NCBI GenBank assembly: GCA_036000965.1
Contig: DASYUT010000140.1
Coordinates: 1-64,000 of the forward strand
Direction: 5' to 3'
DNA from: Actinomycetes bacterium
GTDB taxonomy: Bacteria > Actinomycetota > CALGFH01
DNA: 64,000 nucleotides
Shown: one piece after another, positions 6,442 through 11,467 of the stretch
Numbering within the stretch: position 1 is the first letter of the stretch
Layout: every line of letters starts with the position of its first letter
Made by a program: the position numbers and the translations under genes
Notes under the pieces: generated by a model
Told to the model about the DNA's origin: nothing
Database searches by the model: none
What the model saw: only the letters and a program-made list of their open reading frames with translations

Positions 6442-8280
6442 TCAGCGGCTGAGCTGCGCGACCGCCGGCTCCTGGGCCTGGAACTGGCGCTCGTAAAGCT
6501 GGGCGTACAGCCCCCCGACCGCGAGCAGCTCGGTGTGGCTGCCCTGCTCGACCAGGCGGCCGTGGTCCAGCACCAGGATCTGGTCGGCGGCCAGCACGGT
6601 CGACAGCCGGTGGGCGATCGCGATCGTGGTCCGCCCGGCGAACAGCGGCTTGAGGGCGGCCTGGATCAGCTGCTCCGAGACCGTGTCCAGGTGGGAGGTG
6701 GCCTCGTCCAGCAGCAGGATGCGGGGGTCCTTGAGGATCACCCGGGCGATCGCGACGCGCTGCTTCTCCCCACCCGACAGCCGGTGGCCGCGCTCCCCGA
6801 CGACGGTGTCGTAGCCGTCGGGCAGCGAGCCGATGAAGCCGTCCAGGTGCGCGGCGGTGGCGGCGGCGACCAGCTCGTCGTCGCTGGCGTCGGGGCGGGC
6901 GTAGCGCAGGTTGTCGGCGATCGAGGCGTGGAACAGGAAGGTGTCCTGGAACACGATCCCGATGTGGCCGCCCAGCGACTCCAAGGTCAGGTCGCGGACG
7001 TCGTGGCCGTCGACCAGGACCCGGCCCTGCTGGGGGTCGTGGAAGCGGGGCACCAGCGACACCGCGGTCGACTTGCCGGCCCCGGTCGGGCCCACCAGCG
7101 CGACCAGCTGGCCGGGCTCGACCCGGAACGACACCGCCTGCAGCGCCGGCCGCAGCTCCGGCCGGTAGGCGAAGGTGACCCGGTCGAAGCCGACCGCGCC
7201 GCGGACCCGCTGCAGCGGGCGGGCGCCGTCGCGGTCGGTGACCTCAGCCGGCAGGTCCAGGAGCGCGAAGATGCGGTTGAACAGCGCCAGCGACCCGGTG
7301 ATGTTGACGTGCAGGCTGCCCAGCGACCCGATCGCGCCGCCCAGCCGCCCGGCCAGGACCACGATGAAGGTCACCACGGTGCCGACGGTGGCCTGGCCAC
7401 CGAAGACCAGCCAGCCGCCGTACAGCCACAGCACCGCCGGGCCGGCGGTCTGCAGCACGTCCATCAGCATGTAGAACCAGCGGCCGATCATCTCCTGGCG
7501 CAGCTGCAGCCGGCGCAGCTCGCCGTTCAGCGCGCCGAAGCGGGCTCGTTCGCGGCGCTGGGTGACGAACGCCTTGACCAGCAGGATCCCGGAGATCCCG
7601 AGGACCTCCTGCAGGTAGGCGGTCAGCTTGCCGAGATGGGCCTGGGTCTGCTTGCGGGCCTGGTAGGTGGTGCGGCCGATGCGGCGGCTGGGCAGCAGCG
7701 CCAGCGGCATCAACGCCAGCGCCAGCAGGGTGAGCCGCCAGTCCAGCACCACCATCAACACTAGCGTGCTGGGGATCACGAACAGGTTCCAGACCAGCCC
7801 GAGGATGGTGTCGGCGACGACGTCCTCGACGGCGTTGACATCGTTGCCGATGCGGCTCATGACGTCGCCGGTGCGGCTCCTGGTGAAGAACCCGACCGAC
7901 TGCCGCAGCAGCCGGCCGAACAGCTGCTCGCGCAGGTCGTGCATGATGTGCTGACTGATGGTGGCGCTGAACCACGACTCCGCCACCCCGATCAGCCCGC
8001 CGACCAGCGACGCGGCCACCCCCAGCAGGATCAGCCACGCAAGCTCGCTGAACCGTTCGCCTGGGTGGGCCAGCGCGTCGATCACGCCCTTGGTGACCAC
8101 CGCCGGGACCAGCCCGATGACGGCCCCGGCGGCGATGCACGCGACCGCGCCCAGCCCGCGCCGCCAGTAGGGGCGGAAGCAGCCGAACACCCGCTTGGCC
8201 AGGCACCAGTCCCACTTCGCCTGGGCCTGGTCCTCGGCCCAGTCGAGCTCCATGCTGGCGCCCACGCAGTAGCGCTCCAT
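6442..8280 (-). CDS. ABC exporter, fused membrane and ATPase domains
   Basis: A half-size ABC exporter of 612 residues. The membrane domain (about 30-320) has six hydrophobic spans; the ATPase (about 365-600) shows Walker A GPTGAGKST, signature LSGGEKQRVAIA, Walker B ILLLDEATSHLD and the switch His in AHRLSTV. I place the start at ATG 8280 (MERYCVGASMELDW), because the frame upstream overlaps the Clp-N genes and is only open by chance; ATG 8253 is an alternative. It follows the one-TM miniprotein gene by 47 nt on the same strand, so it is probably the last gene of the HTH/Clp-N operon. The transported compound is unknown. It would work as a homodimer or with another half-transporter. Confidence 0.88.
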   Translation of the reverse strand: MERYCVGASMELDWAEDQAQAKWDWCLAKRVFGCFRPYWRRGLGAVACIAAGAVIGLVPAVVTKGVIDALAHPGERFSELAWLILLGVAASLVGGLIGVAESWFSATISQHIMHDLREQLFGRLLRQSVGFFTRSRTGDVMSRIGNDVNAVEDVVADTILGLVWNLFVIPSTLVLMVVLDWRLTLLALALMPLALLPSRRIGRTTYQARKQTQAHLGKLTAYLQEVLGISGILLVKAFVTQRRERARFGALNGELRRLQLRQEMIGRWFYMLMDVLQTAGPAVLWLYGGWLVFGGQATVGTVVTFIVVLAGRLGGAIGSLGSLHVNITGSLALFNRIFALLDLPAEVTDRDGARPLQRVRGAVGFDRVTFAYRPELRPALQAVSFRVEPGQLVALVGPTGAGKSTAVSLVPRFHDPQQGRVLVDGHDVRDLTLESLGGHIGIVFQDTFLFHASIADNLRYARPDASDDELVAAATAAHLDGFIGSLPDGYDTVVGERGHRLSGGEKQRVAIARVILKDPRILLLDEATSHLDTVSEQLIQAALKPLFAGRTTIAIAHRLSTVLAADQILVLDHGRLVEQGSHTELLAVGGLYAQLYERQFQAQEPAVAQLSR

Positions 8281-8327: not shown

Positions 8328-8489
8328 TCAGCGCAGCAGCGGCGCGATGTCGCGGGCCAGCCGGTCGCTGCCGCCGATCACGGTGGCGCCGGAGCTGAGC
8401 GGCCGGGGCGGGTTCACATCCCAGGCGGCGAGCAGCGCGAACACCAGCAGGCACGCGGCCACGAACCCCAGCCGCCCACGCCGGCTCAC
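8328..8489 (-). CDS. small one-TM membrane protein
   Basis: GTG 8489 overlaps the stop of the upstream Clp-N gene (GTGA), which supports this start. The 53-residue product has a basic N-terminus (SRRGR), one hydrophobic span (LGFVAACLLVFALLAAW) and a short tail rich in Pro, Asp and Arg. I recognise no family. Its place between two Clp-N genes and an ABC exporter suggests a membrane partner of one of them, which is inference from position only. Confidence 0.6.
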   Translation of the reverse strand: MSRRGRLGFVAACLLVFALLAAWDVNPPRPLSSGATVIGGSDRLARDIAPLLR

Positions 8490-9163
8490 GACGCAAGCCC
8501 GCGCAGTTCGGCGGCGACGGCATCCCGCAGCCCGTCCAGGTCCACCCCGAGCGCCTCCAGCAGCGGCCCCGCCGCGCCCCGGTAGTCGCCCGGCAGGCCG
8601 ACGTGCGCGGTGATCCGCCGGTGCCGCCGGGACCCCTTTGTGCCGCCCGCCGGCTGGCGAGCATCCTCCAGCACCCCAAGCAGCACATGCTCGGGGCCGA
8701 CCTCGCCGTGGCCGAGCGCGCTCGCCTGCTCGCTGGCCAGCTGCAGGGCGCGCTTGGCGAAAAACGGCGGGCCACACAGCGGCGTCCACACCACCCTCCC
8801 GCCCCGCCAACCCCGCCGGCGCGTCACCCGCCAGGTCGCCTCCCCGACCGCCCGGAAGCCGAACGTCTCCTCGGTGTTGCGACGGACCGTGTCCAGGTCG
8901 ATCCCCAGCATCCCCAGCAGCTCGGCGTCGCTCGGCCGGGGAGCTGGCACCACCGCCCGCCCTGCCAGATCGAGCAGCTCGGCACGCGCCGCCGCCAACT
9001 CCACCCCAGAGGCCCGCAGCACCCGCGAAGCCCCGCTCTGGCCCTCGGCGAGCACCCCGAGCAGGACGTGCTCCGGGCCGAGATAGCGGTGGCCGAGCCG
9101 CTCAGCCTCGTCCCGGGCAAGGTCGAGGACCAGATGGGCCTGCTCGGTGAACCGCTCGAACAC
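8486..9163 (-). CDS. Clp N-terminal domain protein, copy 1
   Basis: 225 residues holding two Clp-N repeats and no AAA+ ATPase. The first repeat starts at residue 1 (MFERFTEQAHLVLDLARDEA, then LGPEHVLLGVLAEG); the second lies at about 140-222 (ASEQASALGHGEVGPEHVLL and a degenerate end). Clp-N domains bind substrates or adaptors for ClpC/ClpB unfoldases, so free-standing ones are thought to be adaptors or decoys; here that is inference. A Pro/Arg-rich linker joins the repeats. It is a close paralogue of the next gene upstream and overlaps the miniprotein gene downstream. Confidence 0.85.
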   Translation of the reverse strand: MFERFTEQAHLVLDLARDEAERLGHRYLGPEHVLLGVLAEGQSGASRVLRASGVELAAARAELLDLAGRAVVPAPRPSDAELLGMLGIDLDTVRRNTEETFGFRAVGEATWRVTRRRGWRGGRVVWTPLCGPPFFAKRALQLASEQASALGHGEVGPEHVLLGVLEDARQPAGGTKGSRRHRRITAHVGLPGDYRGAAGPLLEALGVDLDGLRDAVAAELRGLAS

Positions 9164-9213: not shown

Positions 9214-9888
9214 TCACGGCACGGCCGCCTGAAGCTCGGTCACCAGGGCCTCACGCAGCTCGTCCAGGTCCACCCCGAACGCCTCGAGCAGGGGTCCGGC
9301 CGCGCCACGGTAGCCGTTGGGAAGGCCGACGGAGGCGTGCAGCTGCCGCACCCAGCGGTTCTTCATGCACCTCGGCCAGGACGTCTGGATGTCCTTCACC
9401 ACCCCAAGCAGCAGCAGCTCCGGGCCGACCTCAGCGTAGCCGAGCACCTCGGCCTGCTCGCTGGCGAAGTACTGCGCGCGCCAGGCGAAGCATGGTGGGT
9501 CGCGCAGCGGCGTCCGCGGCACCCGCCCAACCCCACCGCGTCGCCGGCGAACAGCCTCCCGTATCGCCCACCCCACGGCCTTGCGGCCGAAGGCCTGCTC
9601 GGTGGTGCGACGGATCGCCTCCAGGTCGATGCCGAGCGTGCCCAGCAGCTCGGCGTCGCTTGGCCGCGGGCCGGGCACCACCCCCCGTTCCGCCAGGCGG
9701 CCCAGCGCGGCTCTCGCGGCCTGCAGGTCCACGCCACGGGCCCGCAGGACCCGGGCGGCCCCGCCGCCGCCGTCGCGGAGCAGGCCCAGCAGGAGGTGCT
9801 CGGGACCCACATAGCAGTGGCCGACCAGGGCGGCCTCCTCCCGGGCCAGGTCCAGGACCCGGCCGACATGCTCGCTGCGCTGGACCAC
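9214..9888 (-). CDS. Clp N-terminal domain protein, copy 2
   Basis: Paralogue of the downstream gene (224 versus 225 residues, same two-repeat layout, shared RPSDAELLG.LGIDL and GYRGAAGPLLEA.GVDLDELR segments). The start is GTG 9888, set by a GGAGG ribosome site about 8 nt ahead; the frame remains open further upstream but that part overlaps the HTH gene. The second repeat keeps VGPELLLLGVV in place of the usual GPEHLLLGL, so one conserved His is lost there. It lies 5 nt after the HTH gene and 50 nt before copy 1, so the pair probably arose by tandem duplication. Confidence 0.85.
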   Translation of the reverse strand: MVQRSEHVGRVLDLAREEAALVGHCYVGPEHLLLGLLRDGGGGAARVLRARGVDLQAARAALGRLAERGVVPGPRPSDAELLGTLGIDLEAIRRTTEQAFGRKAVGWAIREAVRRRRGGVGRVPRTPLRDPPCFAWRAQYFASEQAEVLGYAEVGPELLLLGVVKDIQTSWPRCMKNRWVRQLHASVGLPNGYRGAAGPLLEAFGVDLDELREALVTELQAAVP

Positions 9889-9893
9889 GTGTC

Positions 9894-10136
9894 CTACCTC
9901 CGGAACCCGAACCGCCGGCCGGCGTACTTCTTGTGCACCGCCTGCTTGGTGACCCCGAGCCTGGCCGCGATCTGCTGCCACGACCAGCCCTCGGCGCGGG
10001 CGTTCTCGACCTGCAGGGCCTCCAGCACCTCCACCAGGCCGCGCAGGGCGGCGACCGCGGCCAGCCCAACCTCCGGGTCCTGGCTGCCGGTCGCCGCCGC
10101 CACCGCGGTCACCTCGCTCGGAGCCGCCTCACCCAT
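9894..10136 (-). CDS. HTH regulator of the Clp-N operon
   Basis: An 80-residue protein ending in a helix-turn-helix (WSWQQIAARLGVTKQAVHKK, about 50-70) followed by a basic tail (YAGRRFGFRR). A preceding helix (LRGLVEVLEALQVENARAEG) could dimerise. Proteins of this type are often found directly before Clp-N-domain genes in actinobacteria. It is the first gene of the operon; the 16-bp palindrome at 10140-10155 overlaps the -10 box only a few bases before its ATG, so autorepression is likely. Confidence 0.8.
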   Translation of the reverse strand: MGEAAPSEVTAVAAATGSQDPEVGLAAVAALRGLVEVLEALQVENARAEGWSWQQIAARLGVTKQAVHKKYAGRRFGFRR

Positions 10137-10139
10137 GAA

Positions 10140-10171
10140 GTCAATCTACATTGACCCCGCAGGCTCGTCAA
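10140..10171 (-). promoter_or_regulatory. operator and leaderless promoter of the HTH/Clp-N operon
   Basis: Read on the minus strand there is a TTGACG -35 (10171-10166), a 17-nt spacer and a TAGATT -10 (10148-10143). Only six bases separate the -10 from ATG 10136, so transcription should begin at or next to the start codon, giving a leaderless mRNA. The palindrome GTCAATGTAGATTGAC (16 bp, 6-bp arms, 10155-10140) covers the -10 box, a natural repressor site for the HTH product. Confidence 0.65.
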
Positions 10172-10455
10172 ATGCCGTTGACCCGCTCTCAGGGGTTACG
10201 GATCCAGCACACCCGCCTGGTGCTGGCGCGGCGGCAGCGACGCCGCTAGGGACGCTGATCCTTGCCCGGTCGTCGGCTCGGTCCAGCGGGCGCCTTGGCA
10301 CGGAACATCGTGTTGCATAAAGCCCTGAGCTGGGCGTTTGTCTCTCAGAGGGGGCGGTTCGATGCCCGGCTCGATAGTGTGTGGCATGCTCTGGACGTTA
10401 TGGATGAACCGGTTGTCGCTGGCCGTCTGTCGGGCGGCAAGCAGCGACCCGCCAT

Positions 10456-10478
10456 TGAGGGTGTCCGTGATGCTCCGC
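10456..10478 (+). repeat. left terminal inverted repeat, unit 1
   Basis: Begins ATTGAGGGTGTCCGTGATGC. It matches the end at 56985-57007 in 21 of 23 positions and the reverse complements of 12801-12823 and 59844-59865 in about 20. In unit 2 the repeat lies 1 nt after a transposase stop codon, which is where IS ends sit. Confidence 0.65.
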
Positions 10479-10532
10479 GCGTTCGGACGTTGACGGGGAC
10501 CAGCCCATCGGTAAGGTGCTCACGCTTGAACC

Positions 10533-10820
10533 CTCCAAGGACTGCGCGAGCTGCTTGAGGAGATGGCCAAACCGGCGAGGCGGTCGTGGTCGACGGGCTG
10601 GGCACCCGGGTGCAACGCGCCGCCGGGTGGGCCAACCACAAGGTGCTGTATGACGCCAAGCGCCACACCACACCGCCCAGGGGCTGGCGGTGTCGACGCT
10701 CTGGGCGTGCTGTGGTGGTGCGACGGGGCTGGCCGGGCAGCTGCCACGAGCACGACCTCGTGGCGCTGCGGGCTGGATCAGGCGCTGGACGCCGGAAGGG
10801 TCGTGGCGGGGGCGACGGCG
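10533..10820 (+). pseudogene. transposase remnant (DDE type), central part
   Basis: Fragments of one DDE transposase are spread over all three plus frames: LQGLRELLEEMAK, then GEAVVVDG..TRVQRAAGWANH and KVLYDAKRHT, then QGLAVSTLW, PGSCHEHDLVAL and GLDQALDAGRVVA. Adding a single A to the run at about 10568 restores MAKTGEAVVVDG, so there is at least one 1-nt deletion, and two or more further shifts. The N-terminal third and the C-terminal end are missing. The downstream oxidoreductase gene, on the other strand, ends inside this debris. The family (DDE_Tnp_4-like) is named from memory of motifs. Confidence 0.65.
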
Positions 10821-11467
10821 GAAAGGGCGACTGACCTGCCCACGTACTCGGATCCCTCCAGCGCCTGCACGAGGAACCGGCCGACGCAGCTGCGGGACAC
10901 CTTCATGCCGCGAAGCTCGCCAGTCGGCGAGGCGAACGGGAGACCCGCGTGCGGGTCGTCGGTCAGGTTGACCGGCTGGGCGATCACCCAGTCCAGACCG
11001 CTGGCGCGCACCGCACGCTCCTGGCGTTCGGTGTCGGCGATCTGCGGTCGCAGCACCAGCCGGAAGACCAGCCGTTGCAGCAGCGGAAGCTTGTCCCGGG
11101 TCGCCCCCACCCCGTAGGACGTCTGCGCCACCAGCTTGCCAACCCCGTGCTGGCGCATGGCCGTGATGACGTTGCGGGTGCCTCGGGACCGGACGTCCAT
11201 CGGCGTGCTCGTAGGGCCGAGCAACCGGATCCGAAGGGCGTTCTCGCTGATCCCAAGGGTGACGATGACCGCCTCCTGCCCGCGGACCACGCGGTCGACG
11301 TCGGCGGGGTCGGTTGCGTCCCCGTTGATCGCGCGCAGCTGGCCGGGCACCGCACCCAGCCTCGCAGCGTGCCGCGAGAACGCGGTCACCGCATGGCCCC
11401 GCAACAGCAGTTCGTCGACGGCGGCACGTCCCGAGCCGCCGGTTGCTCCAACAACCAGCACCTTCAT
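10778..11467 (-). CDS. NAD(P)-binding oxidoreductase (NmrA/SDR type)
   Basis: A 229-residue atypical short-chain dehydrogenase. The first strand has MKVLVVGATGGSGRAAVDEL (GATGxxG nucleotide motif, 7-13), then INGDATDPADVDRVV and the helix start SGLDWVIAQPVNLTD, as in NmrA-like and NAD(P)H-binding_10 proteins. The start ATG 11467 has an AGGGAG site 7 nt before it; the frame stays open for 275 more codons upstream but this overlaps the AraC gene. The last residues (VAPATTLPASSA) read into transposase debris, so the natural C-terminus may be lost. It diverges from the AraC gene, its probable regulator. Confidence 0.8.
   Translation of the reverse strand: MKVLVVGATGGSGRAAVDELLLRGHAVTAFSRHAARLGAVPGQLRAINGDATDPADVDRVVRGQEAVIVTLGISENALRIRLLGPTSTPMDVRSRGTRNVITAMRQHGVGKLVAQTSYGVGATRDKLPLLQRLVFRLVLRPQIADTERQERAVRASGLDWVIAQPVNLTDDPHAGLPFASPTGELRGMKVSRSCVGRFLVQALEGSEYVGRSVALSAVAPATTLPASSA

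Follow-up and report, generated by a model that had tools for sequence, protein, structure and literature searches.

Twin Palindromes over a Predicted Leaderless Promoter as Putative Operators of a Split HTH/Clp_N Operon in Actinomycetota

Introduction

Two palindromes lying just upstream of a small helix-turn-helix (HTH) gene are, with high probability, the operators through which the encoded 80-residue protein would autorepress its own operon, HTH-Clp_N-Clp_N. The operon was found in a stretch of 64,000 nucleotides of actinomycete DNA, hereafter the window, and it looks like a split form of the ClpC2 switch, following the same logic with separate polypeptides. In tuberculosis, ClpC1 is a drug target; ClpC2 provides the resilience switch against cyclomarin. 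Autorepression, derepression by cyclomarin A and sponge action are known for ClpC2, the fused homologue, and would extend to the window by analogy. If the HTH protein is the DNA reader, the model of ClpC2 release from DNA needs revising. The split version, carried by many other Actinomycetota (144 of the 205 HTHs gathered here adjoin a separate Clp_N gene), is in addition a possible source of sensing of, or tolerance to, ClpC-targeting natural products; no description of a split HTH/Clp_N system was found among the titles and abstract openings of the literature matches listed.

Twin Palindromes and a Leaderless Promoter

Both palindromes have the form GTCAA-N6-TTGAC, both are 16 bp long, and their centres lie 27 bp apart (Table 1). 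The proximal one, GTCAATGTAGATTGAC on the minus strand and GTCAATCTACATTGAC on the plus strand, is a perfect inverted repeat with 6-bp arms. It is its own only match in the window at up to three mismatches, for an expectation of 0.01, and the two matches observed (one site, two strands) were reached by 0 of 100 shuffles. An earlier note on this DNA had proposed this palindrome as a single operator covering the -10 box and ending 4 bases from the ATG. The palindrome is genuine, TAGATT does lie inside it, and the distance is correct to within counting, as three bases, TTC, intervene. The distal twin had been overlooked, however, and the operator is better described as a pair. The minus-strand sequence GTCAACGGCATTTGACGAGCCTGCGGGGTCAATGTAGATTGACTTCATG holds both palindromes, and its last letters are the start codon of the HTH protein.

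Together, the two palindromes span TTGACG-17-TAGATT, the sole promoter-like match between positions 9700 and 10500, which lies on the minus strand. Because the -10 hexamer ends 6 nt before the ATG, the predicted transcription start is the A of the ATG, and the operon would begin with a leaderless HTH gene. The leaderless start put forward in the earlier note thus agrees with the predicted promoter geometry, here and in 72 of 80 related loci, leaderless geometry being defined as TTGAC or TTTAC, a spacing of 17 or 18 bp, and TANNNT ending 6 or 7 nt before the start codon. Start codons in the 80-locus set follow a fixed rule, which gives a wrong or doubtful choice at a few of them (L006, L031, L078).

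Table 1. Features of the operon and its upstream region, in window coordinates.
Feature	Position	Strand	Remarks
Distal operator (predicted), GTCAACGGCATTTGAC	10167..10182	minus	Right arm is the -35; twin arrangement conserved
-35 hexamer TTGACG	10166..10171	minus	Promoter scan
Proximal operator (predicted), GTCAATGTAGATTGAC	10140..10155	minus	Contains the -10; conserved in related loci
-10 hexamer TAGATT	10143..10148	minus	Spacing to the -35 of 17 bp; ATG 6 nt downstream of its end
HTH gene, 80 aa	9894..10136	minus	Recognition helix starts T-K-Q-A-V-H (A66 after Q65)
GGAGGT, likely ribosome-binding site	9896..9901	minus	Overlaps the HTH stop codon and precedes the Clp_N GTG start at 9888; inferred from sequence
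Clp_N protein 1	9214..9888	minus	PF02861, E 2.7e-23
Clp_N protein 2	8486..9163	minus	PF02861, E 6.7e-26
ABC exporter (ABC_membrane + ABC_tran)	6442..8200	minus	Downstream of the Clp_N genes; exact start uncertain

Genes of the Operon

The HTH protein is predicted to fold into four helices (mean pLDDT 88, a confident model). Its gene stops at 9894 and the first Clp_N gene starts at 9888 in another frame, so that two separate polypeptides are made. Downstream of the HTH gene, Pfam gives Clp_N, Clp_N and an ABC exporter, and a toxin gene partner is not among them. At the columns of the cyclomarin pocket (F96, F172), Clp_N protein 1 has V/R and lacks both phenylalanines, while Clp_N protein 2 has F/W, with an uncertain alignment around the second column. 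Among 143 split Clp_N proteins, 90 keep both phenylalanines, and a phenylalanine is found at the two pocket positions in 20/29 and 19/29 fused proteins. Because neither Clp_N protein of the window keeps both, cyclomarin itself is unlikely to act as the inducer, which is probably another compound or signal.

The exporter would be co-transcribed with HTH-Clp_N-Clp_N. An ABC signature is found on the HTH strand in 3 of the 80 related loci, and tblastn of the window exporter on that strand returns the same three (L003, L012, L078). The flanks of these loci extend for only some 2.5 kb. Since the membrane domain of the window exporter begins 1.7 kb past the HTH stop and its ABC signature lies beyond 2.5 kb, they provide a weak test. 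In 56 of the 80 loci (L002-L081), a divergent gene on the opposite strand, about 1.2-1.8 kb upstream of the HTH gene, matches the ATPase domain of the window exporter. Two further observations were made by eye: a short ORF at 8328-8485 resembles a shortened small membrane protein gene, similar genes being seen beside the Clp_N paralogues on contigs C265 and C24, and broken frames at 10300-10850, upstream of the operon, resemble a decayed transposase.

Conservation of the Operators

A scan of species genomes yielded 91 HTH relatives, the best 80 of which were retained. With up to two mismatches allowed in the 10 arm bases, at least one palindrome is present in all 80 loci and two or more in 78, of which 75 have a centre-to-centre distance of 27 or 28 bp. 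A separate Clp_N gene directly follows the HTH gene in all 79 judgeable loci, the remaining one ending with its contig. The earlier note had made its proposal depend on conservation of the palindrome beside other HTH/Clp-N operons, and such conservation is what these loci display. Taken with the leaderless geometry and the precedent of ClpC2 autorepression, these counts make autorepression of the HTH/Clp_N operon, which had been offered as the simplest reading, the likely one.

The palindromes could in principle be mere promoter elements, TTGAC serving as the -35 and TANNNT as the -10, with coincidental symmetry. The distal right arm is indeed the -35, the -10 lies inside the proximal site, and right arms are somewhat better kept (exactly TTGAC in 79/80 distal and 72/80 proximal sites) than left arms (exactly GTCAA in 71/80 and 70/80). 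The left arm alone is altered in some loci, as GTAAA..TTGAC in L005, L008, L011, L017 and L025 and as AGCAA..TTGAC in L163 and L169. Yet the left arms play no part in the promoter and are still exact in the great majority of loci, and both arms change together in several variants, such as GTCAGCATATGCTGAC (L166) and GGCAACTAAGGTTGCC (L175), which argues for a dimer site. As the exact motif is moreover restricted to HTH loci in the source genome, coincidental symmetry is very hard to credit. Another reading would assign the site to a wider regulator, for which the HTH gene is one target among many. In the 6.47 Mb source genome, the relaxed motif GTCAR-N6/7-YTGAC occurs at 43 places, versus 10 for the reversed control, and 35 of the 43 lie away from HTH loci, the other 8 being at such loci. 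Against this, exact GTCAA-N6-TTGAC occurs at only three places, the two window sites and one on contig C24, all of which precede copies of this HTH gene. Of 317 matches to the relaxed motif in 685 kb of loci, 310 fall near the start of an HTH gene, the loci having been fetched around that gene. The wider-regulator reading is consequently quite improbable, if a shade less so than coincidence. Where the earlier note expected the same palindrome to reveal more targets, the exact motif gave none in this genome outside HTH loci, the candidate places elsewhere being the 35 relaxed matches. Operators of the HTH gene itself remain the preferred interpretation.

The paralogues in the source genome differ in their state of preservation. 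The C24 copy (C24:9500-14500, L121) is 90% identical over 70 residues, its frame continues into Clp_N, and it has one 16-bp and one 17-bp palindrome. The HTH paralogues on C229 and C63 have variant sites with GTCAG half-sites; the former (C229:17000-22000, L122) is followed by a short remnant that, by eye, resembles an internally deleted Clp_N. At C265:112500-117500 (L124), an integrase/transposase-like frame (by eye) takes the place of the promoter and most of the HTH gene, of which the last ~21 residues are left, and two Clp_N genes are open.

A wider set of 205 distinct HTH domains was assembled from the 80-locus set, the source genome and other genomes; it is a selection, in which not every listed match was included. 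HTH matches were obtained in 101 of the 296 genomes of a first phylum sample. Of the 205 domains, 144 have a separate adjoining Clp_N gene, 29 are fused to Clp_N and 32 have no detected Clp_N. GTCAR-N6/7-YTGAC lies near the start in 174, and some of the 31 without a site by this strict pattern have variant palindromes. Split systems (n=144) have a 16-bp site in 232 of 234 cases, versus a 17-bp site in 48 of 49 for fused HTH-Clp_N proteins (n=29), the sole non-17-bp site of the fused class being at the C24 copy, where HTH and Clp_N share one frame. Fusion thus goes with an operator 1 bp wider (16 to 17 bp), an association not found in the literature searched; the fused state changes twice on the HTH tree, so that the width contrast is close to one evolutionary contrast.

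Which Protein Reads the Palindromes

The residue that follows the conserved glutamine of the HTH is A in 183, S or T in 14 and G in 6 of the 205 domains, two of which lack the glutamine. A GTCAG arm is found in 9 of 10 site-bearing S/T loci versus 7 of 159 A loci (Fisher 4e-10, uncorrected for relatedness), and G is present in both arms in 8 of 10 versus 0 of 159. The residue after Q therefore appears to covary with the half-site, A going with GTCAA and S/T with GTCAG, a relationship not found in the literature searched. On the best tree the trait shows about 8 changes, but resolution of the HTH tree is poor, only 1 of the 8 independent contrasts falls on well-supported branches, and the covariation rests on 10 S/T loci. 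Few further S/T-type HTHs were added by searching the class of the window (3 genomes) and a 396-genome phylum sample, or the orders of G036 (3 genomes), G166 (8) and G180 (27). The covariation suggests that the HTH reads DNA, i.e., that the small HTH protein, rather than the antibiotic-binding Clp_N, recognises the palindromes.

The alternative is that Clp_N reads the palindrome through the ClpC2 helix of Taylor et al. (R185, R189), in which these authors place the DNA contact, and that the HTH merely dimerises. R185A/R189A is reported to weaken DNA binding by M. tuberculosis ClpC2, and the equivalent arginine mutant of M. smegmatis to raise clpC2 mRNA 2.0-fold (PMC10030653). Clp_N also adjoins the HTH in every judgeable locus of the 80-locus set, where linkage cannot separate the two. 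However, both proposed DNA-contact arginines are found in 19/29 fused proteins versus only 18/143 split Clp_N proteins, the columns in the window being E/V and E/A, so that neither copy has both (the alignment is uncertain there), though the operators are conserved. The K/R and Q of the HTH are, for their part, kept in 143/144 and 144/144 split HTHs, and it is with an HTH residue that the half-site base covaries. The site is also retained in 18 of the 32 HTHs without Clp_N detected in the stretch covered (one of the 18, L028, is cut by the contig end), and the other 14 have no site. Results with the R57A dimerisation mutant and the C-terminal domain alone are taken by Taylor et al. to mean that the dimer matters for tight binding (PMC10030653). 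R57A, in the N-terminal dimer, is derepressed 4.6-fold compared with 2.0-fold for the Clp_N arginine mutant (PMC10030653), a difference that fits an N-terminal reader and also a mere dimeriser. Finally, the predicted recognition helix is in neither ClpC2 structure: by profile alignment, the N-terminal crystal fragment (4-72) stops just before it, and the C-terminal construct starts at residue 94 (PMC10030653), so that the helix would have escaped notice. All this renders Clp_N an unlikely reader, if the least unlikely of the alternatives weighed here. In the fused protein, Clp_N may nevertheless add DNA contacts, in keeping with the weakened binding of the arginine mutant.

Partners other than Clp_N were also encountered. 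In L267, L269 and L274, the gene immediately after a related HTH encodes a PIN domain, and GTCAA/GTCAG palindromes lie close to where the HTH gene begins; these loci are candidate toxin-antitoxin modules. HTHs with operators and no detected Clp_N are followed by an ABC transporter membrane domain at L181:896-1699 and L263:1005-1799, and an HTH-PASTA fusion at L191:507-1190 has a GTCAGGCTACCCTGAC site upstream.

Proposed Mechanism

We propose that one HTH dimer binds each palindrome, and that either monomer uses its recognition helix to read a single GTCAA half-site. Once both palindromes are occupied, the -35 and -10 would be buried and the leaderless HTH-Clp_N-Clp_N(-ABC exporter) operon would be off. 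Given their similarity to the domain at the N-terminus of ClpC that binds drugs, the Clp_N proteins probably serve both as decoy and as sensor: a ClpC-targeting compound, or a misfolded protein, on Clp_N would lift repression and yield more decoy and possibly more exporter. The twin operator, the promoter geometry, the HTH/Clp_N linkage and the residue/half-site covariation are supported by comparison of sequences; we further infer that the HTH can bind unaided, that the signal is relayed by Clp_N in trans and that the exporter belongs to the system.

A broader reading, which we hold to be somewhat more plausible than its opposite, is that one small Actinomycetota HTH family reads GTCAR half-sites by a simple code (A for GTCAA, S/T for GTCAG) and does so with interchangeable partners, namely split Clp_N decoys, fused ClpC2, PIN-domain toxins, ABC exporters, PASTA and, by homology, cluster A phage repressors. 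On this view Clp_N would work in trans as a drug sensor that can be detached, and the location of the ClpC2 reader in Clp_N, as published, would be wrong or incomplete; we lean towards these parts to the same degree.

Comparison with Known Systems

Fold searches returned little that was specific: the best Foldseek match to the HTH model, at E 0.88, was not significant, and a second fold comparison gave generic HTH folds with Z at most 6.7, 8ada being absent among the 50 matches listed. The immunity repressor of cluster A mycobacteriophages (PDB 7r6r) is matched by the HTH profile with E 3.9e-5, and a tblastn search of 50,697 phage records for a copy of the HTH itself was negative at E 0.01. 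In the repressor, the recognition helix begins with R45 and Q46, which are reported to touch guanines on different strands (PMC9283540). This kinship is a further argument for the HTH as the reader. The repressor 7r6r is reported to be 98% identical to the L5 repressor, with the same sites, and the L5 consensus is GGTGG(c/a)TGTCAAG (PMC5712189), in which an invariant bottom-strand guanine occurs only in the GTCAAG half; the phage HTH would thus read that half. The likeness to the window lies in the start of the recognition helix (T-R-Q-A-V in the phage protein) and in the GTCAA within the L5 consensus (PMC5712189). Unlike the window protein, the cluster A repressor is described as a monomer with a second (Stoperator) DNA-binding domain that acts on asymmetric 13-bp sites across the phage genome (PMC9283540); such a domain is absent from the window HTH, with its 80 residues and four predicted helices. 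The phage HTH alone is reported to show no specific binding (PMC9283540), and relatives of the repressor with an identical HTH have distinct site motifs, so that the C-terminal part also sets specificity (PMC6550527).

The profile also matches RelI, the antitoxin of RelS-RelI (PDB 9sdc, E 2.1e-5), which has a related HTH; its partner, as reported, is a RelE-type toxin, without Clp_N (PMC13284704). The same paper already speaks of an HTH domain region in the corresponding portion of ClpC2 (PMC13284704). The direct match of the HTH profile to ClpC2 itself (8ada, Rv2667) is marginal (E 0.0097), and in the loci collected the profile recovers 29 fused HTH-Clp_N proteins, the C24 copy included.

Mycobacterial ClpC2 is described as a single polypeptide that shuts down its own, putatively leaderless promoter through sites of the form CGTCAAC-n5-GTTGACG, which are twin in many species and lie over the -35 and -10 (PMC10030653). 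Cyclomarin A releases this repression, and extra ClpC2 soaks up cyclomarin A (PMC10030653); in M. tuberculosis, a cyclomarin analogue is reported to trigger the response, and ecumicin or ilamycin analogues not to do so (PMC12913811). The window differs in its separate HTH and two Clp_N genes, in its downstream exporter, in sites of 16 bp instead of the 17-bp ClpC2 core (GTCAAC-n5-GTTGAC), and in Clp_N proteins that do not keep both pocket phenylalanines. It shares with ClpC2 a related N-terminal domain, Clp_N, GTCAA/TTGAC half-sites, twin sites over the -35 and -10, and a predicted leaderless start.
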